NCBI RefSeq assembly: GCF_030464345.1 | Contig: NZ_VCYH01000001.1 | Location: forward strand, 186,001 to 250,000 | Length of the DNA: 64,000 nucleotides | Reading direction: 5' to 3' | DNA from: Methanoculleus frigidifontis | GTDB lineage: Archaea; Halobacteriota; Methanomicrobia; Methanomicrobiales; Methanoculleaceae | Made by a program: the position numbers and the translations under genes | Shown here: positions 14,081 to 27,080 of the stretch, one piece after another | Numbering within the stretch: position 1 is the stretch's first letter | Layout: every line of letters begins with the position of its first letter | Notes under the pieces: generated by a model | Database searches by the model: none | What the model was told of the DNA's origin: nothing | What the model saw: only the letters and a program-made list of their open reading frames with translations

Positions 14081-14128
14081 AAGGTATCGAAATATGAGAT
14101 ACAGATGGACTACGGCACAGGTGATACG

Positions 14129-15592
14129 ATGATTCTCAAGACGACAAAGAGCCTCTGTCCGGTATGTCGTGCAGTTCTGGATGCAGACGTAGTGGAGGAG
14201 GACGGAAAGGTCTGGCTGGTGCGGACGTGCCCTGAGCATGGCCTGTATCGGGGTCTGTACTGGTCGGACTCAGAAATGTACAAGCGATTCGAAGAGTACG
14301 AGGTTATCGGGAATGGTGTGGCAAACCCCCAGAAGACCGCAGCTCCGGAGGAATGCCCCCACGCCTGTGGGCTCTGCAACAACCACCGTTCGACCACCCT
14401 GCTCGCCAATATCGATCTGACCAACCGCTGTAACCTCAACTGTGATTTTTGTTTTGCAAACGCCCGTGCATGCGGTTTCGTCTATGAACCGTCGTTTGAG
14501 CAGATCGTCGATATGCTGCGCCTGCTGCGTGACGAGAAGCCTGTGCCGGCACCTGCAGTCCAGTTTTCGGGTGGAGAGCCCACGATGCGCGACGACCTTC
14601 CGGAGATCATCCGCACGGCGAAGGGTCTCGGGTTCCAGCAGGTGCAGATCGCGACAAACGGATTGGTGCTCGCAAAGGACGCTGGTTACGTGCAGGAACT
14701 CAAAGATGCCGGCCTGAGCACGGTCTACCTCCACTTCGACGGCGTCTCGCGGGCAACCAACCCGCTGCTCCCGCACAGCGAGAAAGCGCTCCAGAACTGT
14801 GCAGAGGTCGGTCTTGGGGTTGTGCTGGTGCCGACGGTCATTCGCGGAAGGAACGATCACGAGCTCGGGGAGATCATCCGGTATGCCGCCGAGCATATCG
14901 ACGTCGTCAGGGGCGTTAACTTCCAGCCGGTGGCGTTCACCGGGGCCGCGAGCGACGACGACGTCGCAAATGAGCGTATCACCATCCCGGACCTTGCCGA
15001 CTGCATCGATGAGCAGACGGGGGGCATCATCAAAAAGGACTTCTTCTACCCTGTCCCCTGTGTCGTTCCCGTCTCCGAACTCGTGGAAGCCTACACGGGC
15101 AAGCCGCAGCTCGTCTTCACGGCGCACCAGCACTGCGGCGCCGCAACCTATGTCTTTGTCACCGACGAGGGCATGATCCCGGTGAACAAGATGCTCGACG
15201 TCGATACGTTCTTCTCATCCATCAAGAAGATGGAGGCGAAGCTCCGGAAGGGCGGTTCGATCAATAAGTACGTCACGCTGGTCGAGGGAGTTCGCGACCT
15301 GCACGTCTCCGTGAAGAAAGGGGAGAGCGGCAACACGACGGAATTCTGGAAACTGATCGCAAAGGCGCTCGTCAAGCACAACTTCGAGGCCCTGCGAGAA
15401 TTCCACTGGAACGCCCTCTTCATCGGCACGATGCACTTTATGGACAGTTTCAATTACGATACCCAGCGCGTGCAGCGCTGCTGCATCCACTATGCAACCC
15501 CCGACGGGCGCCTCATCCCCTTCTGCAGCTACAACAGCGGCCCGGTCTTCCGGGAGCAGGTCTGGAAGGCGTTTGCAAAAGACGCAGAGTAG
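14129..15592 (+). CDS. Radical SAM protein, tetraether lipid synthase (Tes)-like
   Basis: The 487-residue protein has an N-terminal cysteine knuckle (C10, C13, C34 in CPVC...CPEHG), a second cysteine group CPHACGLC (76-83), the radical SAM motif CNLNCDFC (101-108), the SAM-binding GGE (148-150), and a C-terminal RCCIHYATPDGR...PFCSYN cluster. This multi-cluster layout and length match the Mj0619/MA_1486 family, shown to join two archaeol chains into tetraethers; Mj0619 had earlier been proposed as a methanopterin methylase. ATG 14129 follows a GGTGAT site; ATG 14105 lies almost at the predicted transcript start. Its position opposite carS favours a lipid role. Confidence 0.8.
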   Translation: MILKTTKSLCPVCRAVLDADVVEEDGKVWLVRTCPEHGLYRGLYWSDSEMYKRFEEYEVIGNGVANPQKTAAPEECPHACGLCNNHRSTTLLANIDLTNRCNLNCDFCFANARACGFVYEPSFEQIVDMLRLLRDEKPVPAPAVQFSGGEPTMRDDLPEIIRTAKGLGFQQVQIATNGLVLAKDAGYVQELKDAGLSTVYLHFDGVSRATNPLLPHSEKALQNCAEVGLGVVLVPTVIRGRNDHELGEIIRYAAEHIDVVRGVNFQPVAFTGAASDDDVANERITIPDLADCIDEQTGGIIKKDFFYPVPCVVPVSELVEAYTGKPQLVFTAHQHCGAATYVFVTDEGMIPVNKMLDVDTFFSSIKKMEAKLRKGGSINKYVTLVEGVRDLHVSVKKGESGNTTEFWKLIAKALVKHNFEALREFHWNALFIGTMHFMDSFNYDTQRVQRCCIHYATPDGRLIPFCSYNSGPVFREQVWKAFAKDAE

Positions 15593-15663: not shown

Positions 15664-16611
15664 TCAGGGAAACGGCAGGTCGATGCCGTCGGCATGCCGC
15701 ATGGCAACGGCTGCGATGGCCAGGTCCTGGACGGCAATTCCCGTCGAGTCGAAGATGGTGACCGCCCCGGACGAAGAGCGCCGTTTCATTCCGATCACCA
15801 CCTCGCCGAGCGTTCCGGCGATCTCGCCGGGGGTGTAGTGCCCTTCCCTGAGAGGGACATTGATCTCTCCCGAATGCACTGCCTGCTCTGAATCGTCCAC
15901 GTACACCTCAGCCCGGCGGAGGAGGGCAGGGTCGAGTTCCTGTTTACCGGGGGCATCCGCGCCGATGGCATTGATGTGCGTCCCGTCGGCTATCCATGCC
16001 GCATCGACGACCGGCACGGTGGACGGCGTGGTGGTCACCAGGACGTCGCAGTCGCATGCCTGCCTGATGGGCACGCTGCGGGCGCTGTAGTCGGGGTACC
16101 TTGCTGCAAATGCCTCCGCATGCTTCTCTTTCCGCGTCCAGACCTTCAGTTCCTCGATCGCCAGCTCGGCGGCGATCGCCTCGACCTGTGCTTCGGCCTG
16201 TCTGCCGGTGCCGACGAGGCCGAGCGTCACCCGCCGTTTCGGCGAAAGATACTTTGCCGCGACGGCTCCGGCCGCACCGGTGCGCATGGCGGTGAGTTCC
16301 GTGGCATTGATGATCGCCTGCGGAAGGCCGGTTGCAGGATCGAGAAGAACGGTGAGCGCCATCACCGTCGGCAGACCCCCGGATCGATTCAGCGGGTGCA
16401 CATTGACGACCTTCACCCCGGCGATGCCGAGTGCCGGCAGATAGGCGGGCATCGTCCGGAAATCCCCGGTATCGAAGGTTACGTAGATCTTCGGCGGCAT
16501 CTGCACGTTGCCTCTGCCGTGTTCGGCAAACGCCATCTCGATCGCACGGTTCACATCGGGTATGGAGATCCGCCGCCACGGCCCGGCATAGTATCGCATA
16601 CGAGTACTCAT
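15664..16611 (-). CDS. Ornithine cyclodeaminase / alanine dehydrogenase family (mu-crystallin type)
   Basis: The 315-residue protein has the OCD/mu-crystallin fold: an N-terminal substrate domain with PPKIYVTFDTGDFRTMPAY, the arginine motif ELTAMRTGAAGAVAAKYL, and a Rossmann NAD site LGLVGTGRQAEAQV. Members act as ornithine cyclodeaminase, archaeal alanine dehydrogenase or reductases of cyclic imines; the sequence alone does not settle which. It lies 31 nt downstream of the hydrogenase-linked roadblock gene on the same strand and may be the last gene of that operon. Confidence 0.88.
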   Translation of the reverse strand: MSTRMRYYAGPWRRISIPDVNRAIEMAFAEHGRGNVQMPPKIYVTFDTGDFRTMPAYLPALGIAGVKVVNVHPLNRSGGLPTVMALTVLLDPATGLPQAIINATELTAMRTGAAGAVAAKYLSPKRRVTLGLVGTGRQAEAQVEAIAAELAIEELKVWTRKEKHAEAFAARYPDYSARSVPIRQACDCDVLVTTTPSTVPVVDAAWIADGTHINAIGADAPGKQELDPALLRRAEVYVDDSEQAVHSGEINVPLREGHYTPGEIAGTLGEVVIGMKRRSSSGAVTIFDSTGIAVQDLAIAAVAMRHADGIDLPFP

Positions 16612-16642: not shown

Positions 16643-17341
16643 CTACGGCCTTACGAGATCTTCCTGGATGCGCCGTATCGCCAACCGGATGAGCCCGAGA
16701 TGAGCATCCGGCTCTGTCAGGACACAGATGAAGAGTTCACCGTAGGGAGCGGTGATCAGTTTTCCTTCCGGGGATTCGAGGATGATCTGCGTGAGGTCAC
16801 CCATCGCCATGTCGCTGACGATTCTGATGCCGGCACGGAGCAGGTCCTCGGCGACGGCGGCGATCTGCTCGACATCGGCGTTTCCGAATGACTGGAGCGC
16901 AAACCCCTCATGAAAGACCGAAACCGCAACGACGCCGGGCTGTTTTCCGATCTGCTCCAGCCGCTCCGCGCTCATCATCATCTCGATGTCCACCGGCTCC
17001 GGTTCAGGTTCCGGCTCCTCCACTGTCTCCCTGGCAACGGCGCAGCCGGCATCACAGCAGTAGTCCCATGCCTCGTCGAGCTCATCGGGCGTATATACCG
17101 CCATTTCACATTCGATCGTCGGCAGGCTCCGGATGCGTTCTATGGCCTCATCGCCCTGCTGGATCGAGATCCCGTCGTCATCTTCAAACCTGGCAGCAAT
17201 CGGGTGCCCCGTCTCGACGACGAGGAACCCGGCGCCTTCAGGGTCGGTGATCCAAAGCCTCCCGGTAAATCCGGGGGTGATGCTCATGAGATTCTCGAGC
17301 GGCCCCTGCATCTTTCCAAGCAGTCTCCCATCAGGCAGCAT
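16643..17341 (-). CDS. Two-part regulatory protein: FTG-type domain plus roadblock/LC7-like domain
   Basis: The 232-residue protein has an N-terminal domain around SITPGFTGRLWITDPEGAGF...VETGHPIAARFED, resembling DUF4388/DUF2226-type domains, an acidic hinge EEPEPEPEPVD (about 108-118), and a C-terminal roadblock/LC7-like domain (GVVAVSVFHEGFALQSFG, then VSDMAMGDLTQIILESP). Roadblock proteins usually dimerise and regulate small GTPases or motors. It starts 6 nt after the first roadblock gene in the hydrogenase operon. Domain names are by pattern and need a profile search. Confidence 0.65.
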   Translation of the reverse strand: MLPDGRLLGKMQGPLENLMSITPGFTGRLWITDPEGAGFLVVETGHPIAARFEDDDGISIQQGDEAIERIRSLPTIECEMAVYTPDELDEAWDYCCDAGCAVARETVEEPEPEPEPVDIEMMMSAERLEQIGKQPGVVAVSVFHEGFALQSFGNADVEQIAAVAEDLLRAGIRIVSDMAMGDLTQIILESPEGKLITAPYGELFICVLTEPDAHLGLIRLAIRRIQEDLVRP

Positions 17342-17347
17342 CAGACT

Positions 17348-17695
17348 TCACAGAGCAGCGGTTATCCGGTCGCGGTTCTTTTTCAGTTCGTACCTGATCC
17401 TGCCGACGTTGACGTTTGCGTTCGCGACGATGGCGATCAGCTCGTCCTCGGAGAGCGGTGATAACAGGATGGGGCCGTTCTCGAGCTCGACGAGCATCTG
17501 GCTCATCTCCCCTTTCCCGAGCTCGATGCTCATTGCCTCCGACGTACCCATGCCGGTCGACGCCATCGCTCCGAGCGCCTCGATGTCGAGATCGCCGGCG
17601 GTCACACTCTCGATGACGAAGCCGTCCCGGCCTGCAACAACGGCGGCCGTCACTCCGTCAAGCTTCAGGAATTCTCCAAGAATCTGTTTTAACAT
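17348..17695 (-). CDS. Roadblock/LC7 domain protein
   Basis: The 115-residue single-domain protein has the roadblock pattern: a first helix (MLKQILGEFLKLDGVTAAVV), the strand-turn AGRDGFVIESV, a central glycine/serine/methionine helix, then MSQMLVELENGPILLSPLSE and a final helix. It overlaps the end of the hydrogenase large subunit gene by 7 nt, so it is made with the enzyme. In bacteria similar proteins (MglB type) partner a small GTPase, but none is encoded nearby. A role in assembly, placement or control of the hydrogenase is inference. Confidence 0.82.
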   Translation of the reverse strand: MLKQILGEFLKLDGVTAAVVAGRDGFVIESVTAGDLDIEALGAMASTGMGTSEAMSIELGKGEMSQMLVELENGPILLSPLSEDELIAIVANANVNVGRIRYELKKNRDRITAAL

Positions 17696-19074
17696 TGGTA
17701 TCTCCTCGTTTGGGATTGTTCAACCTCGATCCTGATAGGCATCCGGCCTATGGCGTGGGTGGCGCACGAGATGCAGGGGTCGTAGGCACGGATCACCATC
17801 TCGATCCGGTTTGCGGCGCTCTCGGTCACGGCACCGTTTTCTACGACACGCCGGGCCATATCCTCGACGCCCCGATCCATCGCGTAGTTGTTCTGGCAGG
17901 TCGCCACGATCAGGTTGCAGTGCTCGATCATGCCGTTCTCATCCACGGAATAATCATGGACCAGCGTGCCGCGGGGTGCCTCGATGATCCCGACGCCGCG
18001 CCGGTTCTTGACAGCCTGCACCGGTGTCCTGACATCCTCGCCGGTAATGCCGCCGTCCGAGAGGAATGAGACTGCCTTTTCGCAGCAGGCCATGAACTCG
18101 ATGTACCGGGCGATGTTGTAGGCGAGGGTGGTCTGGGTATGCCTGCCGAAGGCCCCGCGGTACTCGGCGAGCGCCGCATCGGCATGCTCGCTTCCCATCT
18201 TCTCGATGATGTTGAGCCGGGCCAGCGGCCCGACCCGGTAGTAGTCGCCGGAGGTAAACCGGGCAAACTTCAGGTACGACCACGGTTCGGAGTACTCGTC
18301 GATATAGTCTGTGTACTCAGGACCCGCAAACGACCCGAGCCGGCTTCCGTCACGTCCGATCATCTCCACGGCGCCGTTGTAGGTCGAGAAGACGCCGCCG
18401 TCGCTCATGCCCATGAACGCGGTATCGACGGAGCCGTAACGCTGGTCGACATCGTCCAGCAGCCCGCGCGCGATCTCCCAGCCTTCCCGTGCTATGCCGA
18501 GCGACTCCTCCGCCATGGCAAGGAGTTCGGTCCGCCTGCTCTCGGAGAGCGGCATCGACATGCCGCCGGGAAGAGCATTCCCGGGGTGGATGGGCTTGCC
18601 GCCGATCGCTTCGCTGAGCCTCTGGCCGAATTTCCTGACCGCGATCGCCTTCTTCGCAATATCAGGCGACCGCTTTGCAAGCCCGAGCACGTTGCGCTCT
18701 TCTGCCGGCGCCTCGTGGCCGATGAGGAAATCGGGAGCCGCGAGCATGAAAAAGTGGAGCGCGTGCGAGTGGATGAACTGCCCGAGGTTGAGCAGTTCCC
18801 GCAGGTTTCTGCCGGTCGCGGGGGGCTCGACACTGAAGATCTGATCCGTCGCCTTCGCCGCGGCGAGGTGATGGGCTGACGGGCAGATCCCGCAGATCCG
18901 GGGGGTGATGCGCGGCGCCTCCTCGACGGCGGCGCCGATGAGGAATTTTTCAAATCCTCGCAGTTCGACGACCTGGAAGTGGGCGGATTCGACCTCTCCG
19001 GCATCGTTGAGGTAGATCTTAACCCCTGCATGCCCCTCGATCCTGGTGACCGGGCTGATGGTGATCTCTTTCAT
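17689..19074 (-). CDS. [NiFe] hydrogenase large subunit, Mvh-like (group 3)
   Basis: The 461-residue protein carries both nickel-binding motifs: RICGIC (C61, C64) and DPCISCATH (C434, C437). A 21-residue tail after His440 should be removed by a maturation protease, and one is encoded at 25082-25540. The start (ITISPVTRIEGHAGVKIYL) and SHALHFFMLAAPDF segment are close to MvhA, the F420-non-reducing hydrogenase. No MvhD or FrhB gene is here; the neighbours are a ferredoxin, a V4R protein and roadblock proteins, so the electron acceptor is not the usual Hdr-bound MvhD as far as this locus shows. It overlaps the small subunit gene by 4 nt. Confidence 0.92.
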   Translation of the reverse strand: MKEITISPVTRIEGHAGVKIYLNDAGEVESAHFQVVELRGFEKFLIGAAVEEAPRITPRICGICPSAHHLAAAKATDQIFSVEPPATGRNLRELLNLGQFIHSHALHFFMLAAPDFLIGHEAPAEERNVLGLAKRSPDIAKKAIAVRKFGQRLSEAIGGKPIHPGNALPGGMSMPLSESRRTELLAMAEESLGIAREGWEIARGLLDDVDQRYGSVDTAFMGMSDGGVFSTYNGAVEMIGRDGSRLGSFAGPEYTDYIDEYSEPWSYLKFARFTSGDYYRVGPLARLNIIEKMGSEHADAALAEYRGAFGRHTQTTLAYNIARYIEFMACCEKAVSFLSDGGITGEDVRTPVQAVKNRRGVGIIEAPRGTLVHDYSVDENGMIEHCNLIVATCQNNYAMDRGVEDMARRVVENGAVTESAANRIEMVIRAYDPCISCATHAIGRMPIRIEVEQSQTRRYQC

Positions 19075-19997
19075 CCGCTCCTCTCCTTGACAAGGTCCCG
19101 TATCTTCGAGTTCTCTTTGTCCTCCATGATCAGGCTCCCGATGGTGAATGCATACATCGTGTGGGCGACGTCGTAGAACTCCTTCTCGACCTCTTTCTGC
19201 GGTTTGTCCGTCAGGTCGGAGATGCGCCGCAGCATCATGTTGTAGATGTCGCGGCAGGGTTCACGGAGAACGTCGAGGGACGGGCCGTTGCACCCGGTGC
19301 ACGGCACGTTGTTCTTCGGGCATGCCGCCCCGCATCTCCCGAAGGTCACGCTTCCGAGACAGAGATATCCCTGCCCGAGCAGACAGTGCTCCCGGTCAGG
19401 TATGCCCTCGTGGCGCCTTTTGAGCGACCAGTTCTCAACAGGCCCCATCTTCCGGTCGCACTCCGCGCAGACGGACTTCCTGGAGAGAGCGAGGGTGTCG
19501 CCGGCGATGATCGCCGGGATGATCTGCCGCAAAAAAGCCTCTTTTGGCGGGCAGCCGGTGATGTAGTAGTCGATCTTCGTTATATCGCCGACCGCGAACG
19601 CCCGGTACAGGAACGGCGGCACGTCGTTGGGTATGACGCCGTCGTCATCTGCCGTCGCGGTTTCACGGTAGACGTAATTGAAGAGCTCGTCGTTGCTGCT
19701 GAGCATCGAAAGTCCCGAAACCCCGCCGTAACAGGCGCATGTCCCGAAAGCCACGACCTTCTTCGCCCGTTTCCGGAGCAGTTTCAGGCGTTCGTGGTTC
19801 TCTTCGTTTCTGATGGCGCCGGTCACGAATGCGATATCAATGCCCTCGGGCGGTTCCTTGACGTCCATAATCACCGGTGAGTAGACGATATCCGCCTGCG
19901 CTACGAGGTCGAGGAGCATCTCGTGGAGGTCGAGGACTGCTATCGTGCATCCCGAGCATCCTGCCAGTTCTTCGATTGCTATCTTCACGGAATGCAC
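19071..19997 (-). CDS. [NiFe] hydrogenase small subunit, Mvh-like
   Basis: The 308-residue protein carries iron-sulphur clusters from the active site outward. The proximal ligands ELAGCSGC (C14, C17), AFGTCACYGGV and YITGCPPKE are present, and later cysteines (CAECDRK, REHCLLGQGYLCLG, GRCGAACPKNNVPCTGC) supply medial and distal clusters. There is no twin-arginine signal, so the enzyme is cytoplasmic. It starts 1 nt after the V4R gene and ends overlapping the large subunit start as ATGA. Confidence 0.92.
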   Translation of the reverse strand: MHSVKIAIEELAGCSGCTIAVLDLHEMLLDLVAQADIVYSPVIMDVKEPPEGIDIAFVTGAIRNEENHERLKLLRKRAKKVVAFGTCACYGGVSGLSMLSSNDELFNYVYRETATADDDGVIPNDVPPFLYRAFAVGDITKIDYYITGCPPKEAFLRQIIPAIIAGDTLALSRKSVCAECDRKMGPVENWSLKRRHEGIPDREHCLLGQGYLCLGSVTFGRCGAACPKNNVPCTGCNGPSLDVLREPCRDIYNMMLRRISDLTDKPQKEVEKEFYDVAHTMYAFTIGSLIMEDKENSKIRDLVKERSG

Positions 19998-19998
19998 C

Positions 19999-20565
19999 TC
20001 ATTTCAGGATGAGCTTTTTGAGACAGGCGTTCGGCCCGGTATGGACGATCTCAAGTTTCGCCCTGCGGCCGGTGATCTCTTCGATGGCTCCTACGACATA
20101 TCCGAAGAGCGTCTGGCAGAGCGGGCCGCCCTGCTCCTGTCCGTTTCGCCGCAGCGTCTGGCGCACGATACAGTCGTGGAAGACGAGATAGATGAACGTC
20201 TGCCCGTCTTCCTCAATGATGAAGTTCTCTTTGTCTTCGGGCTTCCAGACCTCGAAGGTATACTGCCCCCGCAGGAGGTCTGAGAGCTCGTGCAGCGCTT
20301 CTTCCACATCATCGCGTTTCTGGAAGTATTTGGCGATCTCGTGGCCGAACTTTTTCCCCGCCCGATAGGTGACCGCATTTGCCCCCCGGCCTGCGATCTC
20401 CTCGAGGGACCGGATGATCAGTCCGTTGAGTTTCATCACGCCATGGAGCGTCTCTTCCATCTCGCTTGGGCGCGGCGTGCATTCGAGGGGAATGTCTTCG
20501 GAGCGATAGACGATGTCGGTGTGAAAACTCTCGTGCAATTCGTCGATATAGGATGCCGTCATCAT
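19999..20565 (-). CDS. V4R (4-vinyl reductase-like) domain protein
   Basis: The 188-residue protein matches the V4R/hydrocarbon-binding pattern: a glycine-rich helix (YRAGKKFGHEIAKYF), a strand-rich middle (YTFEVWKPEDKENF) and the C-terminal segment VFHDCIVRQTLRR...GGPLCQTLFGYVVGAI...NACLKKL, with three conserved-type cysteines. V4R domains bind small hydrophobic ligands or metals and often sit in regulators. It is translationally coupled to the ferredoxin gene (ATGA overlap) and the hydrogenase. It may be a sensor or assembly factor (inference). Confidence 0.7.
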   Translation of the reverse strand: MMTASYIDELHESFHTDIVYRSEDIPLECTPRPSEMEETLHGVMKLNGLIIRSLEEIAGRGANAVTYRAGKKFGHEIAKYFQKRDDVEEALHELSDLLRGQYTFEVWKPEDKENFIIEEDGQTFIYLVFHDCIVRQTLRRNGQEQGGPLCQTLFGYVVGAIEEITGRRAKLEIVHTGPNACLKKLILK

Positions 20566-20804
20566 ATCACCCTGTTCAGCATTTCACAGACCCGCATGTC
20601 GATGTAATGCCTCCGTGCCGGGTATATGCCCCGGTGCTCAAGTGCCTGAGCCGGGCAGATCTCGTGACAGGAGAGGCATCCCATGCAGTTCTTCGGTTTG
20701 ACGGGGACACTTACCCCGTCCCGGAGTTCATAGACATCCATGGGACAATCCTTGACACAGAGACCGCATCCGACACACGCGTCGGTATCTACACGTATAT
20801 CCAT
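20562..20804 (-). CDS. 2[4Fe-4S] ferredoxin, first gene of the hydrogenase operon
   Basis: The 80-residue protein has two full cluster motifs, CVGCGLCVKDCP (C10, 13, 16, 20) and CMGCLSCHEICP (C40, 43, 46, 50), and a 30-residue tail ending CEMLNRVI. It is the likely electron carrier or an extra subunit of the hydrogenase. The ATG at 20804 follows AAGG, and a TATA box lies about 50 bp upstream. Confidence 0.9.
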   Translation of the reverse strand: MDIRVDTDACVGCGLCVKDCPMDVYELRDGVSVPVKPKNCMGCLSCHEICPAQALEHRGIYPARRHYIDMRVCEMLNRVI

Positions 20805-20851
20805 CCTTGTAGCCTCATGATCGATTCAATCACTTTGATATAATCAAGCCA

Positions 20852-20868
20852 CGACATATAAATATGAT
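20852..20868 (-). promoter_or_regulatory. TATA box of the hydrogenase operon
   Basis: On the minus strand CATATTTATATGTC lies at about 20855-20868, with an AT-rich flank GATTATATCAAAG nearer the gene. It predicts transcription starting near 20835, about 30 nt before the ferredoxin ATG. No clear operator dyad is seen. Confidence 0.5.
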
Positions 20869-21096
20869 GGTTTCTGTCTGGCTGTCTTCAATCATTTTCT
20901 CATAATATCTCCGTTTTTATGTCGGGTTTGAAGGTGCGGGCTATCCAATGCACGGCACGGATCCGTTCGTGGGTGGTGTCCTGAGAAGCACCTGGTGACT
21001 CCTCGTGCGGGTTGCAGGCAGGTCGCGGTGCCACTTTGCCGCCCTCCCGGGTTTGGGGGGGCGCAGTGGCAATCACATGCAGGGGAGGGGGATGCC

Positions 21097-21498
21097 CCAT
21101 ATACGCTACCGTAGCCTCTGGGTGCACCGAAATTCCTGGTGCTATCGGCGGGATCCAGGCACGTGATGAGATCCCATCTCTTGCTCCGGATGACCGCAGT
21201 CCGGGGTATTCGGGGGCACGGCTTTCCCCTGGGTATCGCCATGACTGCCCCCGCCCCGTGAGGGGCGGGGGAGGAGGCCGGAGGCCGGGTGGGGCGGGGT
21301 TGATGAGGTCTGTGGATCTTCGCGGGAGACAGGGGAGGGGAAAACCCCTCCCCGTCGGCCTCACCCCGGGGGCGCTTAGCCGCCACGGTCCGCGGCATGG
21401 GGAGACGCCCGGGAAAACGGTCGTCCCCGGCACCAGCCCGGTCAGGGGAAAAACGCGGTATACGCTTGAATCCCCGTATCGAAGGGTAGCGCTAATGG
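21097..21498 (+). repeat. MITE-like intergenic element, copy B (402 bp)
   Basis: The ends are CCATATACGCTACC and GGTAGCGCTAATGG, imperfect inverted repeats of each other that extend outward through GCCC/GGGGGC. Inside are GGGGAGGGGAAAACCCC (part of a hairpin) and a CGCCCC/GGGGCG palindrome. It fills most of the gap between the hydrogenase operon promoter and the MinD operon. The flanks (20870-21096, 21499-21858) hold no gene I can support. Confidence 0.8.
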
Positions 21499-21858
21499 GG
21501 GCACACACCTCCCCCGGTCCATCCCGACGAAGACACACCTCATGATCCGGTATTTGCACAGTAGATTCGGGCAGCGGAGGGAGGCGGAGCCGTCCCTGAA
21601 CAGAGCAGGGTATCACGATTCATCGCCCAGGTCTGTGGCCGATATGGCTACAGCAATGGTTTTCGGTAATGAATACAGGATTGATCGCGGCAGGATACGT
21701 TCGGTTAGATTTCCCAAAAGAAATTTTTTAATCCAATCCTGGAGCACTATCGCACTCTTCGGAGCAGATCTCCGAGATGTTCTCCCGACGTCGGCACCGG
21801 GCAGAAAGTAAAAAAAAGACGTTCATGCCGCTTCCCCGGCAGGAGCGGTTCACCTGGC

Positions 21859-22050
21859 TCATCTGAAATTGATGTTTTTAGTGGCAGAGATGAGCATCTC
21901 CAGATCCTGATTTGAGAACTCCAGATTCTGTCCGAGCTGGTCAAGTTCATCCTGCTGCTGTTTGATGCGCCGGTACATGACGTACATCATGAAGAGCTGA
22001 AAAAGAACGACGAGGGCGAAGAAGACGAGCAGTAAGCGCTCAAGAGTCAT
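21859..22050 (-). CDS. Small membrane protein with a coiled coil
   Basis: The 63-residue protein has one N-terminal transmembrane helix (LLLVFFALVVLFQLFMMYV) followed by a basic turn (YRRIKQQQ) and a heptad-like helix (DELDQLGQNLEFSNQDLEML). Its start overlaps the minD stop by 4 nt. It is last in the MinD operon and may be the membrane partner of that ATPase (inference). No known family recognised. Confidence 0.7.
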   Translation of the reverse strand: MTLERLLLVFFALVVLFQLFMMYVMYRRIKQQQDELDQLGQNLEFSNQDLEMLISATKNINFR

Positions 22051-22838
22051 CGTTTCCCTCTGAAGAGTGCTCTGGCCAGCCGGTCGACGAATCCCTCCCG
22101 TGCGGGTGTATCCGGTTCCTCCGCGGGACTCTCAATGCCGGCGAGATTCGCAGAGATGCGTCGGAACGCCCGGGATGCAGTGGAAGAGGGATATTTGACG
22201 ACGATCGGAAGACGGCCCGCAGATGCGCGCCGGACGTTCGGGTCTTCGGGAATGATGCCGATGATCCGAACGCCGAGCAGTTTCTCCATCTGCGCCCGGC
22301 TCATCTCGCCGTTGCTTGTGGTCACCCGGTTCAGGATTGCTCCTTCGACGCGCCCTCCCACCGTCTCGGTCAGGATCTTTGTCTTCAGTGCATCAACGAT
22401 GGAGGAGATCTCCGGATTGACCACCAGAATAACCCCGTCTGCGACGGTCAGCGGAATGACACCGTCTCTGCTGATGCCTGCCGGTGCATCGATAAGCAGT
22501 ACGTCGAAGTCATTGACGATATCGTTCATGACGTCCCGCAGGCGGTCCGGGTTGGAGTTCTGGAATCCCTGCAGCGAAAGGCCGCTTGGAACCACTTTTA
22601 CACCGAGCGGCCCGTCATAGATGGCATCTTTGACTGCCGCTCTCCCCCCGAGGACTTCGTGAAGCGTTACCGGAAGGTTCTCAAGCCCCAGAATGAGCCC
22701 GAGGTTGGCCATCCCGACATCTGCATCCAGAATACAGGTCTTTTTACCGTACTGCGCAAGCATCGGGCCGAGGTTTGCCGTAACCGTTGTCTTCCCTGTC
22801 CCCCCTTTCCCGGATGCAATCGTATATACCTGAACCAT
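22047..22838 (-). CDS. MinD/ParA-type positioning ATPase
   Basis: The 263-residue protein has the deviant Walker A SGKGGTGKTT near the start, DADVGMANLG, and Walker B-like VLLIDAPAGISRD. The C-terminal end (FVDRLARALFRGKR) is an amphipathic basic helix like the MinD membrane-targeting sequence. Such proteins cycle between membrane and cytosol and position division rings, archaella, chemotaxis arrays or other complexes. Here it lies in an operon with roadblock-type and FTG-domain proteins, not with minE or minC. Confidence 0.9.
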   Translation of the reverse strand: MVQVYTIASGKGGTGKTTVTANLGPMLAQYGKKTCILDADVGMANLGLILGLENLPVTLHEVLGGRAAVKDAIYDGPLGVKVVPSGLSLQGFQNSNPDRLRDVMNDIVNDFDVLLIDAPAGISRDGVIPLTVADGVILVVNPEISSIVDALKTKILTETVGGRVEGAILNRVTTSNGEMSRAQMEKLLGVRIIGIIPEDPNVRRASAGRLPIVVKYPSSTASRAFRRISANLAGIESPAEEPDTPAREGFVDRLARALFRGKR

Positions 22839-22886: not shown

Positions 22887-23447
22887 TTACACCCATCTCT
22901 GGAGGGCATCACCAACATCGTTCTTCAGCAGTTCCAGGGCGTCTCCGGGGATCTGCCGCATCGTTCGAGCGACACCGATCACCGTCTCTCCTTTGTGGGG
23001 GACGCCGATAAGCGTGACTTCCTTCTCATCGGGCGTCTTCCCCTGAAGGTAGAGATAACTGAATTCCGCCGCCTCCTCCTGCGGGTCCGGGCGGGTCGAC
23101 CCGATGACGAGGCCGTCCGACGAGGCGAGTGTGAAAGATGTGAGACTATACTTCTCGCCGATGGCCGAGAGGTGAGCCTGCATGCTCTCCGCACCGGCCA
23201 GATCGATCTCGGATCGCACCGTGCTCTGTGACTCGGCAGGAACCGGATCTGCATAGCCCAGGTGTTGCTCAAGGGAAGACTTCACCTGCGGCTGAAGGGT
23301 GACCCTCTGGTGGAGATCCACGATCATCGCAAGATCCGTGCGGAGGTTCACGATCCAGTACAGGCATCCGGCAACGGCGATCACCAGAATGACTGCCGTT
23401 ATCGCTACAAAGGTCAGAAGGAACAGAGTGTATCCTGTTGGGTCCAT
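22887..23447 (-). CDS. Membrane-anchored roadblock-like protein
   Basis: The 186-residue protein begins with a transmembrane helix (FLLTFVAITAVILVIAVAGC) and has a cytoplasmic stalk and a C-terminal domain with the roadblock pattern (SFTLASSDGLVIGS, then EVTLIGVPHKGETVIGVA). It is the third roadblock-type protein in 7 kb. It lies between the FTG-domain gene (16 nt) and minD (48 nt), all on one strand. A membrane docking role for the MinD system is inference. Confidence 0.68.
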   Translation of the reverse strand: MDPTGYTLFLLTFVAITAVILVIAVAGCLYWIVNLRTDLAMIVDLHQRVTLQPQVKSSLEQHLGYADPVPAESQSTVRSEIDLAGAESMQAHLSAIGEKYSLTSFTLASSDGLVIGSTRPDPQEEAAEFSYLYLQGKTPDEKEVTLIGVPHKGETVIGVARTMRQIPGDALELLKNDVGDALQRWV

Positions 23448-23463
23448 AGACGGGTATCAACTC

Positions 23464-24069
23464 CTACGCATCGCTGTCCTGAATAAGGTGCTCCAGATCG
23501 ATTCTCCGGAGCAGATCCTTACAATCCGTCCTGAACGAACCGTTGAGGGTTTCGAGATCCATGGCCTCGATCATCTGGACAAGGGCGTCGAGCTCTTCAT
23601 GCTGCCCCTGGTCGGCCGCGACCGGTCGACCGGTACTCCCCTGCGACGTGCGCTCTGTTGGCGCAGTGGGAGGTGCTGGCTGCGTGCGACGCTCCGGGCG
23701 TGCGGGGGGTCTCTCTGTCGCTCTGACCCTGCCGCCTCTCGTCCCTTTCTCTCCTCGCACGGCAGCCCCTATCTCGAAACTCCGGTTGAACTCCCGCGTC
23801 AGTTTGATCTGTTCGGATGTAAGGATATTCAGTTCTGCAGTCGCCTCGCGGTCCCACTTTTCCTTTGCGTCGTCCAGTGCATGCTGTCCTTGTTTTGCAC
23901 CGCACCCGGCGAGCAGCACCTGCCCCCTATCGTATACTAGAATGGTGCTCTCACCTCCGAGTGCTATGGTGCAGTACCCCGTAAACTGCGTCTTCTGCAG
24001 TTCGTCCGTCAGTGAACGGATGGTGACTGACTTATAAATGCGGTGGAACTTTCCGCGCGGCAGCTGCAT
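23464..24069 (-). CDS. FTG-domain (DUF2226/DUF4388-like) protein, intact copy A
   Basis: The 201-residue protein has an N-terminal domain around SVTIRSLTDELQKTQFTGYC and ALGGESTILVYDRGQVLLAG, similar to archaeal DUF2226 proteins by pattern, a helical segment, a proline/arginine-rich linker (about 115-150), and a short helical C-terminus. A good TATA box lies just upstream. It is the first gene of the MinD operon. A second, damaged copy lies 876 bp upstream. Confidence 0.7.
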   Translation of the reverse strand: MQLPRGKFHRIYKSVTIRSLTDELQKTQFTGYCTIALGGESTILVYDRGQVLLAGCGAKQGQHALDDAKEKWDREATAELNILTSEQIKLTREFNRSFEIGAAVRGEKGTRGGRVRATERPPARPERRTQPAPPTAPTERTSQGSTGRPVAADQGQHEELDALVQMIEAMDLETLNGSFRTDCKDLLRRIDLEHLIQDSDA

Positions 24070-24209: not shown

Positions 24210-24455
24210 TCACTTCGTCTCACCGTGCACACCTCCGGATGCTTTTCTGGTCTCCTCGTCGACTGTCGGACAGCCCGTGACGTCGACCGCCACCACCCTG
24301 GCCGGTGTCCCGCGTTCGCGTACGATGCAGAACACGTCCGGAAGGCTGCTCTTCTGCAGCCCGAGCGTGTCGCGGCACGCCTGAAAGGGCTCGCCGAATA
24401 CGCGGACGTCCCTGTGATGCACGGCGTGCCGGCACTTCGTGAGGCGACCGAGCAT
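24210..24455 (-). pseudogene. C-terminal remnant of a duplicated hydrogenase maturation protease
   Basis: In this frame the segment DVRVFGEPFQACRDTL, then LPDVFCIVRERGTPARVV and AVDVTGCPTVDEE, lines up with DVRIFRGNPPARGGTL, LGDVIAVARELGIPTEVV and TVGIEVGSVEE of the intact protease at 25082-25540. The N-terminal half with the metal-binding motif is missing, so it cannot be active. Confidence 0.75.
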
Positions 24456-24528
24456 GCCCCGGGCGCGGTGCAGACTGCTCTCCCGTTCGTGCCCTGGTCT
24501 GCTGCACCCCGGTTGCCCCTTTCCCGCT

Positions 24529-24639
24529 CTGGCGATCTGCAGCCATCCTGCTGCTGCTCTTTCGGTCCAGGTGCCAGTACCTAAACCAATTCAAAAAAAA
24601 CTGGCGATCTGCAGCCATCCCGCTGCTGCTCTTTCGGTC
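24529..24639. repeat. Two 39-bp direct repeats at the fusion point of the duplication
   Basis: CTGGCGATCTGCAGCCATCC followed by T/CGCTGCTGCTCTTTCGGTC occurs at 24529-24567 and again at 24601-24639 with one difference. The repeats lie where the damaged FTG gene meets the protease remnant, and probably mark the rearrangement that joined them. Confidence 0.8.
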
Positions 24640-24641
24640 TT

Positions 24642-24945
24642 TTAGAACCTCACAGGCCCGATTGAATTCCTGCGCCAGTTCGATCTGTTCGGGTGTAAAG
24701 ATATTCAGTTCTGCGGCTGCTCCGGCCGCCCCCTGTCCCTGCACGGTATCCAGTGCAGCATCTCCTCTCTCTATGCCGCACTCGGCGAGCAGCACCTGCC
24801 CCCTATCGTATACCAGAATGGTGCTCTCACCTCCGAGTGCTATGGTGCAGTACCCTGTAAACTGCGTCTTCTGCAGTTCGTCCGTCAGTGAACGGATGGT
24901 AACTGATTTATACATGCGGTGGAACTTTCCGCGCGGCAGCTGCAT
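24642..24945 (-). pseudogene. FTG-domain protein, damaged copy B
   Basis: The first 101 residues are nearly the same as copy A (MQLPRGKFHRMYKSVTIRSL through EQIELAQEFNRA). After that the frame enters the 39-bp repeats (DRKSSS twice) and then reads the protease remnant out of frame, to a stop at 24220. The TATA box found before copy A is degraded here. It is probably not functional, though a fused product of up to 241 residues could still be made. Confidence 0.72.
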
Positions 24946-25081: not shown

Positions 25082-25540
25082 TTACTCCTTCATCTCCCGA
25101 AGTACGCATGCATATGCTGCCCGTACTCCCTCTTCCACCGCGGGATCGAGCCTGTCTGAGTATTCCTCCACCGAACCGACCTCGATACCGACCGTCACCA
25201 CCTCGGTCGGTATCCCGAGTTCGCGTGCGACTGCGATGACGTCTCCAAGGTCGATCTCATGCAGCGCGAGCGTGCCGCCGCGTGCCGGAGGGTTCCCCCG
25301 AAAGATGCGGACGTCGCCGATGCGGTTGCCGATCCCGACCATTGCATCCACAACGACGACCTTTGTACATTCCTCCATGAGCGGTATCAGCCCGAGCCCC
25401 CCGACGCCGGCGTCTACCGCATCAATATCAGGGTTGTTCTCATGCAGGAGGTTCAGCACTGCGATTCCTGCCCCGTCGTTTCCCATAAACGGGTTTCCGC
25501 AGGCGATGACGCGCTTATGGGGGTCAGTAGCGGTGTTCAT
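25082..25540 (-). CDS. Hydrogenase maturation protease (HycI/HyaD type)
   Basis: The 152-residue endopeptidase has the family start RVIACGNPFMGNDGAGIAVL, with the acidic residue that ligates nickel in the precursor, then VDAGVGGLGLIPLMEE and VVVVDAMVGIGNRIGDVRIF. It trims the large subunit C-terminus after nickel insertion. The likely substrate is the hydrogenase 6 kb away, which has a 21-residue extension; other hydrogenases elsewhere in the genome are possible. ATG 25540 fits the family; the longer frame adds 63 unrelated residues. Confidence 0.9.
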   Translation of the reverse strand: MNTATDPHKRVIACGNPFMGNDGAGIAVLNLLHENNPDIDAVDAGVGGLGLIPLMEECTKVVVVDAMVGIGNRIGDVRIFRGNPPARGGTLALHEIDLGDVIAVARELGIPTEVVTVGIEVGSVEEYSDRLDPAVEEGVRAAYACVLREMKE

Positions 25541-25629
25541 CTTCACCACCGGTTTTATTGTGCCGGGTAGAAAAAGGTACGTACGAACCGCCCGGGAAGC
25601 GTCAGCACTCCTGCAGCGGAGAGGCGAAC

Positions 25630-26433
25630 GTGAGAACCATGATCTACATTGTACCGAAACCGACCGATACGCCCGATGACAACTCCACCGGGCAGGTAAT
25701 CCATGAGCTTGAGAAGGCCGGGGCAGCATATCGGATACTCGACCTCGACGACGTCGACCCCTTGAAGAGCGGGCTTGCGCACGAGGTCATCTGGGCGTGC
25801 GGCATCAGACAGAACGGCCACCATTTCGAGACGCTGAACGTTTTGTCGCTGGAGAACCGCGTCGTCAATACGCCGGAGAGCATCGTCACCTGCGCCTGCA
25901 AGGTGATGACGTCGGCGCTGCTGATCCGCCACGGCGTCCCGACGCCCACCACCCTGTTTACCTCTTCGCCGGACCGTGCGCATGCGTTCATCGGGGAATA
26001 TGGAAAGGCTGTATATAAGCCCCTGTACGGATTTGACGGAAACGGCATCCGGCTTGTCACCGACGGAGGTGACCTTGGGGAGCCGCCGTGGTACCTGCAG
26101 GAGTACGTCTGGAACGACCGTGATTTCCGGGTGTTTGTCATCGACGGGGAGGCCGTCGGCGCGATAGAGCGCGTCTCCGACAGCCTGACGCACAACATCC
26201 ACCAGGGAGGGATCGGAAGGCCGGTCGAGATTGATGAAGAGATGCGCTCCGTCACCGAGGCTGCCGCCACCGCCATTGGGATCGACTACTGCGGCGTGGA
26301 TCTGCTCCGTGACGGTGACGGATATACCGTTCTTGAGGTGAACGGGACGCCGAACTGGCACTGCATGGCGGCACCGATACCCCGGCTGCTTGCCGCATTC
26401 CTGATGGAGAAGGAACGGGAGATGCGGGCCTGA
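25630..26433 (+). CDS. RimK-type ATP-grasp ligase, MptN-like
   Basis: The 267-residue protein is an ATP-grasp ligase: KAVYKPLYGFDGNGIRLV is the glycine-rich ATP loop, WYLQEYVWNDRDFRVFVI the second ATP segment, and CGVDLL...YTVLEVNGTPNW the metal-binding end. It resembles tetrahydromethanopterin:alpha-L-glutamate ligase, which adds glutamate to the C1 carrier tetrahydrosarcinapterin, but other RimK-family substrates are possible. GTG 25630 is favoured by GGAG eight bases upstream; ATG 25639 is the alternative. It is divergent from the protease gene. Confidence 0.75.
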   Translation: MRTMIYIVPKPTDTPDDNSTGQVIHELEKAGAAYRILDLDDVDPLKSGLAHEVIWACGIRQNGHHFETLNVLSLENRVVNTPESIVTCACKVMTSALLIRHGVPTPTTLFTSSPDRAHAFIGEYGKAVYKPLYGFDGNGIRLVTDGGDLGEPPWYLQEYVWNDRDFRVFVIDGEAVGAIERVSDSLTHNIHQGGIGRPVEIDEEMRSVTEAAATAIGIDYCGVDLLRDGDGYTVLEVNGTPNWHCMAAPIPRLLAAFLMEKEREMRA

Positions 26434-26443
26434 GGGGCGTGCC

Positions 26444-26813
26444 CCATATACGCTACCGTACCCTCTGGGTGCACTGAATTCCTGTTGCTATCGGCGGGGT
26501 TCAGGCAATTGATGAGGCCGAATCTATTGCTCCGGGTGACCGCAATCCGGAGTATTCGGGGGCACGGCTTTCCCCTGGGTATCACCATGACTGCCCCCGT
26601 CCCTTGAGGGGCGGGGTTGATGATATCTATGGATCTTCGCGGGAGACAGGGGAGGGGAAAACCCCTCCCCGTCGGCCCCACCCCAGGGGGCGATAGCCGC
26701 CACAGTCCACGGCATGGGGAGACGCCCGGGACAAGCCCGGTCCGGCACCAGCCTCATCAGGGGAAGAACGCGGTATACGCTTGAATCCCTTTGTCGAAGG
26801 GTAGCGCTAATGG
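26444..26813 (+). repeat. MITE-like intergenic element, copy C (370 bp)
   Basis: The ends are CCATATACGCTACC and GGTAGCGCTAATGG, as in copy B, and the interior matches apart from a roughly 30-bp loss beside the GC palindrome. Its left end lies 10 bp after the MptN-like gene's stop. The DNA from 26814 to 27080 holds no supported gene. Confidence 0.8.
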
Positions 26814-27080
26814 GGGCCGGCCCCTCCCCCGGTGCGATCGCCGCTACGCTCCCGGATGTTTCCTGGAACATTGCCGATTGCCGCCACGTGTCGTCGGGAT
26901 TTGGGGGGAGGCGGACGTCGGGCGGATCCGGTGCCTTTGCATGCGGTCTTCTCCGGCTTCCGGGGTTCGGGACGAGCGCAGCGCCCGGGGTGCCGGGAAG
27001 GAGCTCTCCTGAAAAACGTTACAGAGATCCGTCGGCGAAGAGGGTTGTTGGGTGAGCGTTTGAAAAAGATATTCTAATAT

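Follow-up and report, generated by a model that had tools for sequence, protein, structure and literature searches.

Gene organization of the hydrogenase operon

The window analysed here is a stretch of 64,000 nucleotides from Methanoculleus frigidifontis (contig NZ_VCYH01000001.1, positions 186,001 to 250,000), and the subject of the analysis is a six-gene operon in it that encodes a [NiFe] hydrogenase together with a ferredoxin, a V4R-fold protein and two roadblock proteins. The first-pass annotation reported six genes at 16643-20868, and all six are found there as co-directional open reading frames (ORFs) on the minus strand, at 16643-20804. From the first gene onwards they are:

20562..20804, minus strand: fdx, an 80-amino-acid 2[4Fe-4S] ferredoxin, above the curated Pfam cut-off; first gene of the operon
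19999..20565, minus strand: V4R-fold protein of 188 amino acids, recognized by fold match; obligate companion of the hydrogenase
19071..19997, minus strand: [NiFe] hydrogenase small subunit, MvhG-like over almost its full length; Pfam Oxidored_q6
17689..19074, minus strand: [NiFe] hydrogenase large subunit; Pfam NiFeSe_Hases, both CxxC motifs present
17348..17695, minus strand: rob1, a roadblock/LC7 protein of 115 amino acids; Pfam Robl_LC7 above cut-off
16643..17341, minus strand: rob2, an alpha/beta "FTG" domain of about 100 amino acids followed by a C-terminal roadblock domain; Pfam Robl_LC7

Adjacent genes overlap by 4, 4 and 7 nucleotides (nt) or are separated by gaps of 1 and about 6 nt. 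As a putative promoter element, the TATA-like sequence TTTATATG stands some 55 nt in front of fdx; TATA-like motifs are found upstream of fdx in several genera, but out of register. The absence of MvhD and FrhB, to which the annotation drew attention, holds for the operon: neither mvhD nor frhB is among its genes, and an ORF and Pfam check of these genes gave no FrhB-like ORF. A Pfam scan of the operon genes gave no kinase or transcription factor. The fdx product is presumed to be the electron partner of the hydrogenase. Purifying selection is strong, with omega values of 0.03-0.07 for the V4R gene, about 0.04 for rob1 and 0.11-0.14 for the large subunit; among the products of the operon, rob1 is the best conserved, with 93-96% identity to near relatives.

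Distribution and conservation of the cassette

The cassette was followed by protein search through 232 Methanomicrobiales genomes, counted irrespective of kinship. The hydrogenase was present in 78 of them, in the families labelled f1, f2, f4 and f5; families f3 and f6 gave FrhA-level matches alone, apart from short fragments. The V4R gene accompanied the hydrogenase in 76 of these 78 genomes, both misses being contig ends, and was found in none of the 154 genomes without the hydrogenase, save for one remnant of 36 amino acids. The order v4r-small-large-rob1-rob2 was intact in 65 of the 70 loci examined, the other five being contig ends, so that the arrangement is not due to chance. All 37 loci that extended far enough to be scored had fdx directly upstream of the V4R gene. 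The ferredoxin, the V4R protein and the small and large subunits, invariantly linked and jointly lost, thus constitute the working unit. The annotation had considered that related genomes might carry the hydrogenase without the V4R and roadblock genes; no such genome was found, the exceptions again being contig ends.

Beyond Methanomicrobiales, a V4R profile search was carried out over 375 genomes of the phylum. Two Methanocella genomes, one of 3,179,916 bp that we take to be Methanocella arvoryzae and the other M. paludicola, each carry the arrangement fdx-V4R-small-large-rob1-rob2-...-minD. The genome of M. paludicola measures 2,957,635 bp (PMC3146512). In family f10 the arrangement is fdx-V4R-small-large-pilB-pilC, and in family f9 it is V4R-small-fdx-large, with a MinD/rob1/rob2 block in one f9 genome. 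Recurrence across Methanomicrobiales, Methanocella and two further families rules out an oddity restricted to the window genome. No account of such a set came up in a literature search that combined V4R, roadblock and hydrogenase.

Relation of the hydrogenase to known [NiFe] hydrogenases

The large subunit carries RICGICPSAH as its L1 motif and DPCISCATH as its L2 motif, and the relatives carry the same motifs; in the window protein a tail of 21 residues follows DPCISCATH. Against the 5odc structure, the large subunit scored 387 bits to MvhA and the small subunit 257 bits to MvhG (5odc_E) over residues 4-287, with the cluster cysteines aligned. The NCBIfam cut-offs for VhuA and VhuG were nevertheless missed (391 versus 800 bits for the large subunit and 245.6 versus 450 bits for the small subunit), as was the FrhA equivalog cut-off (201.3 versus 392.5 for the large subunit). 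In the large-subunit tree, the V4R-type enzymes of Methanomicrobiales and Methanocella form a clade of their own with a support of 100/98, and a separate clade with a support of 97/97 unites MvhA and VhuA with the second Methanocella Mvh; with few references in the tree, the deep branching order is unsure. The enzyme thus resembles MvhAG and VhuAG of group 3c in being a predicted soluble heterodimer whose cluster cysteines align with those of MvhG, and differs from them in its separate clade, its scores below the equivalog cut-offs, its own ferredoxin and V4R protein and the lack of a linked mvhD. On these comparisons it is classed as a soluble group-3c-like [NiFe] hydrogenase of a lineage separate from Mvh.

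The best match of the large subunit in the Protein Data Bank (PDB) was the HydL/HydS-type subunit of the Acetomicrobium hydrogenase (7t2r), at 407 bits. That enzyme groups with a Woeseiaceae enzyme in the tree and not with the window clade, and no V4R or roadblock protein was seen with it. Sensory hydrogenases of group 2b also differ from the window enzyme, which is 3c-like by score, has the 21-residue tail and has no kinase in its operon. The V4R-linked large subunits of f9 and f10 lie outside the V4R-type clade on long branches, and a single origin of the V4R partnership is therefore unproven.

Some divergent loci showed features of their own. In the V4R-linked loci L160, L161 and L162, the large subunits stop exactly at DPCxxCxxH with no C-terminal extension, and an extra ORF of 125-134 amino acids, V4R-like by eye and with a weak match in two of the loci, lies just upstream of V4R. 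At L169, a 3c-like large-subunit homologue that lacks the customary RxCGxC and DPCxxC motifs adjoins mvhD and is possibly not a hydrogenase.

The V4R-fold protein

The naming of the second gene product as a V4R protein, first made by eye, stands on its fold, an AlphaFold2 model matching V4R and TRAPP proteins, and not on Pfam. The Pfam scan gave no match to PF02830, and its best hit, ATC_hydrolase with an E-value of 0.0017, was not significant; remote homologues match Pfam V4R weakly (E-values of 0.009 and 0.044). A PDB sequence search with the protein returned nothing significant. The model was built from 26 homologues and is of moderate confidence (pLDDT 73, pTM 0.65). With this model, Foldseek found the phenol sensor domains of MopR, DmpR and PoxR at E-values of about 6e-5, a probability of 1.00 and a TM-score of about 0.5, and it also matched TRAPPC3/Bet3 and MJ1460. 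The window protein thus shares its fold with these sensor domains and with TRAPP/Bet3 proteins, and unlike MopR, DmpR and PoxR it is a stand-alone protein without an AAA+ or DNA-binding domain. The hydrogenase-linked V4R homologues compared share Cys131, Cys149, His174 and Cys180, except where a residue was masked. The zinc ligands of DmpR are Cys151, Glu172, Cys177 and Cys185 (PMC7264223), and Cys149, His174 and Cys180 of the window protein roughly match zinc-ligand positions. The probable role of the V4R protein is to bind a metal, a small ligand or both, and to gate, dock or mature the hydrogenase.

The roadblock/MinD module and type IV pili

Upstream of fdx the island runs on to 25729, a continuation that the first-pass annotation overlooked. 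The genes in this part are:

21859..22050, minus strand: protein of 63 amino acids with one N-terminal membrane helix and a coiled coil, adjoining minD
22047..22838, minus strand: MinD-family ATPase (TIGR01969), member of the roadblock module
22887..23447, minus strand: membrane-anchored protein, roadblock-like by eye only, without Pfam match
23464..24069, minus strand: ftg, a cytoplasmic protein with an FTG-type N-terminal domain, without Pfam match
24220..24945, minus strand: tandem second ftg copy with a divergent 3' half
25082..25729, minus strand: HycI-type hydrogenase maturation protease, homologous part 25103-25513

Translation of the HycI-type ORF likely begins at an internal start. 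Equivalents of the 63-amino-acid coiled-coil protein, 60-74 amino acids in length, come after minD in other loci. The tandem ftg copies are 86% identical over 300 nt, and the 3' half of the upstream copy is divergent, perhaps frameshifted.

Against Pfam PF03259, for which the cut-off is 23, rob1 scored 59.4 bits and rob2 31.8 bits. The C-terminal domain of rob2 matches Asgard roadblock proteins, p14/LAMTOR and MglB; unlike MglB and LAMTOR, rob2 carries an additional N-terminal domain that matches no known fold, and neither this domain nor the FTG proteins matched a named family. The islands showed no Ras-like GTPase. In the loci L081, L082, L084 and L090, a second, divergent rob1/rob2 pair is situated upstream of fdx, where other genera have minD.

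Roadblock/LC7 proteins and a FleN/MinD ATPase are known from archaeal type IV pilus loci (arCOG02603), in a census that names neither hydrogenases nor V4R (Makarova et al. 2016, PMC4858521). In many relatives the module resembles this pattern, with rob1, rob2, MinD and FTG adjoining PilB, PilC and the prepilin peptidase. About 72 hydrogenase-less genomes carry an orthologue of rob1, mostly at 71-78% identity (the presence tallies of rob1 and pilB were compiled by hand). At the f6 loci examined, all without the hydrogenase, rob1 mostly adjoins type IV pilus assembly genes, and the layout is leuRS-PIN ATPase-hisI-prepilin peptidase, c13, followed by minD-membrane protein-ftg, divergent from rob1-rob2-pilB-pilC-pilC; at the equivalent locus L087, Pfam recognized a T2SSE, two T2SSF and a Peptidase_A24 protein. 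The pilus locus encloses the hydrogenase operon in f2, f4 and part of f5. In the window genome, unlike these loci, the pilus genes are on another contig (C6), where the prepilin peptidase is followed directly by c13 and pilB with no block genes between them. The hydrogenase-roadblock-MinD block has left the pilus locus as one unit in this genome.

At four loci (L130-L133) the hydrogenase has been lost and rob1 and rob2 have been retained. In L132 (genome G109) an apparent recent deletion has fused the first 25 residues of fdx to the large-subunit C-terminus and left rob1 and rob2 intact; L130 keeps decayed fragments of fdx, V4R and the small subunit, and L131 and L133 have no fdx, V4R or hydrogenase remnants. 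Every complete genome with the hydrogenase also has rob1. Apart from incomplete genomes, the presence pattern is nested, the hydrogenase within rob1 and rob1 within pilB. V4R and ferredoxin thus belong to the hydrogenase, and the roadblock/MinD module is a neighbour of greater age with a link to pili, as rob1 occurs without the hydrogenase and rob1 and rob2 are kept after its loss. The presence of rob1 without the enzyme rules out the roadblock proteins as hydrogenase-specific subunits. The special set proposed earlier is accordingly upheld for the V4R protein, the ferredoxin and the lack of MvhD and FrhB, and not for the roadblock proteins.

Interpretation of the hydrogenase and its partners

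The best overall reading, to which we assign a probability of roughly 0.55, is that of a distinct hydrogenase which does not serve heterodisulfide reductase (Hdr), has its own ferredoxin and an obligate V4R partner, and is coupled to a roadblock/MinD-pilus module. The enzyme probably has a job other than the standard role in methanogenesis, because a ferredoxin and a sensor-like protein are constant in its cassette and its neighbours are linked to cell positioning and pili. More likely than not, it couples the oxidation or evolution of H2 to electron transfer with the dedicated 2[4Fe-4S] ferredoxin. The V4R protein would act as a metal- or ligand-binding partner that gates, docks or matures the enzyme. 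More tentatively, the enzyme may be tied by cell placement or signalling to the rob1/rob2/FTG/MinD module. At the low H2 that these organisms meet, established thermodynamics would keep a soluble, non-bifurcating H2:ferredoxin enzyme close to equilibrium, and this would suit either redox balancing or H2 reporting.

Several points weigh against this interpretation. The linkage of the hydrogenase to the roadblock/MinD module is long-lasting, whereas their functional coupling, which we infer, is read from gene neighbourhood alone, and the co-occurrence counts do not correct for kinship. The pilus genes are not adjacent to the hydrogenase operon in the window genome. Since rob1 and rob2 outlast the loss of the hydrogenase, they have another job, and the linkage could be hitch-hiking. 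The unlinked MvhD could also serve the V4R-type hydrogenase.

The separability of rob1 and rob2 leads to the alternative of a plain anabolic or redox-balancing H2:ferredoxin hydrogenase, in which V4R serves assembly or regulation and the roadblock/MinD genes lie nearby by historical accident, without function. The constant ferredoxin and V4R of the cassette agree with it, and the catalytic motifs, the C-terminal tail and HycI are those of a normal working enzyme. The behaviour of the roadblock/MinD block is difficult to reconcile with an accident, as the block moved with the hydrogenase away from the pilus locus, adjoins the hydrogenase in Methanocella and f9 as well and is never absent from a hydrogenase genome. 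We regard this alternative as rather unlikely.

The enzyme could instead be an ordinary MvhAG, with the unlinked mvhD protein joining it to HdrABC for flavin-based bifurcation and the V4R and roadblock genes as mere neighbours. This is how the literature names it: Memar_1007-1008 was termed an F420-non-reducing hydrogenase (Anderson 2009, PMC2686161), and the Methanoculleus enzyme has been called a bifurcating 3c hydrogenase and its expression reported (PMC11201294). We assigned the V4R-type enzyme to Memar_1007-1008 from genome position and the lack of another candidate, not from the locus tag. The near end-to-end alignment of the small subunit with MvhG is in line with this naming, as is the single mvhD of the window genome, which lies on another contig and adjoins hdrA. 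The V4R-type clade differs from that of MvhA, however, and mvhD is not only unlinked but also retained where the hydrogenase is absent: it occurs in 179 of the 232 Methanomicrobiales genomes, including those of the hydrogenase-less families f3 and f6. Its presence in families without the V4R-type hydrogenase fits the known use of MvhD with formate dehydrogenase and Hdr (PMC10579272). No match to mvhD was obtained in any V4R-type locus, and it was seen only in L009 (an hdr locus), L044, L167 and L169; the possibility raised in the first-pass annotation, that mvhD lies beside this hydrogenase elsewhere, thus found no example at V4R-type loci. An oversight by the search is ruled out, as mvhD was picked up with the same query next to other 3c-like hydrogenases (L044, L167, L169). 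A 2021 study of Hdr in Methanoculleus thermophilus reportedly found no hydrogenase with Hdr. The same species is cited for formate-linked Hdr (PMC10579272), which also speaks against the ordinary MvhAG.

Methanocella, moreover, holds both types. In M. paludicola the V4R-type enzyme is MCP_2492-2493, again assigned from position and the lack of another candidate and not from the locus tag; a second Mvh set (MCP_2773-2774, 2767) lies near mvhD and hdr (PMC3146512) and is not of the V4R type. An ordinary MvhAG also leaves the obligate V4R unexplained. We consider it improbable, and quite likely the enzyme is not the MvhD-HdrABC bifurcating hydrogenase of the usual annotation.

A final possibility is an H2 sensor, in which the ratio of reduced ferredoxin or the state of V4R would report H2 to the roadblock/MinD polarity module and so position or switch type IV pili or set their output, tying attachment or movement to H2 in hydrogen-limited methanogens. 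Its attraction lies in the sensor-like V4R fold, in the linkage to the pilus ATPase PilB in f2, f4, part of f5 and f10, and in the f9 large subunits, which end at DPCxxCxxH without a cleavable tail. The missing tail is a trait of sensory hydrogenases. That roadblock and MinD proteins are known neighbours of archaeal type IV pili (PMC4858521) is also consistent with it. We hold its probability low because the window enzyme retains the 21-residue tail and a maturation protease; in addition, the enzyme falls outside the sensory type of group 2, the cassette has no kinase or transcription factor, and in the window genome the pilus genes lie far away.

In Methanoculleus and its relatives the V4R-type enzyme goes by the name of "3c" or "Mvh" hydrogenase and has been treated as the bifurcating Hdr hydrogenase (PMC2686161, PMC11201294). 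Should it be a different enzyme with its own partners, assignment by subunit homology alone misstates the energy metabolism in much of Methanomicrobiales, and the question of how these organisms feed Hdr sharpens. The distinct hydrogenase favoured here also offers a concrete and testable link of hydrogen metabolism to the archaeal roadblock, MinD and pilus machinery.

Other features around the operon

A GC-rich intergenic repeat of about 450 bp is found at 20890-21540 and 26477-26833, with 59 matches in the genome that amount to several dozen full or partial copies; one copy stands between the MinD group and fdx. Downstream of the operon lie a gene for the tetraether lipid synthase Tes (14105-15592; 739.5 bits, above cut-off) and a gene of the alanine dehydrogenase/ornithine cyclodeaminase family (15664-16611), and both keep this position throughout Methanoculleus and its close kin.

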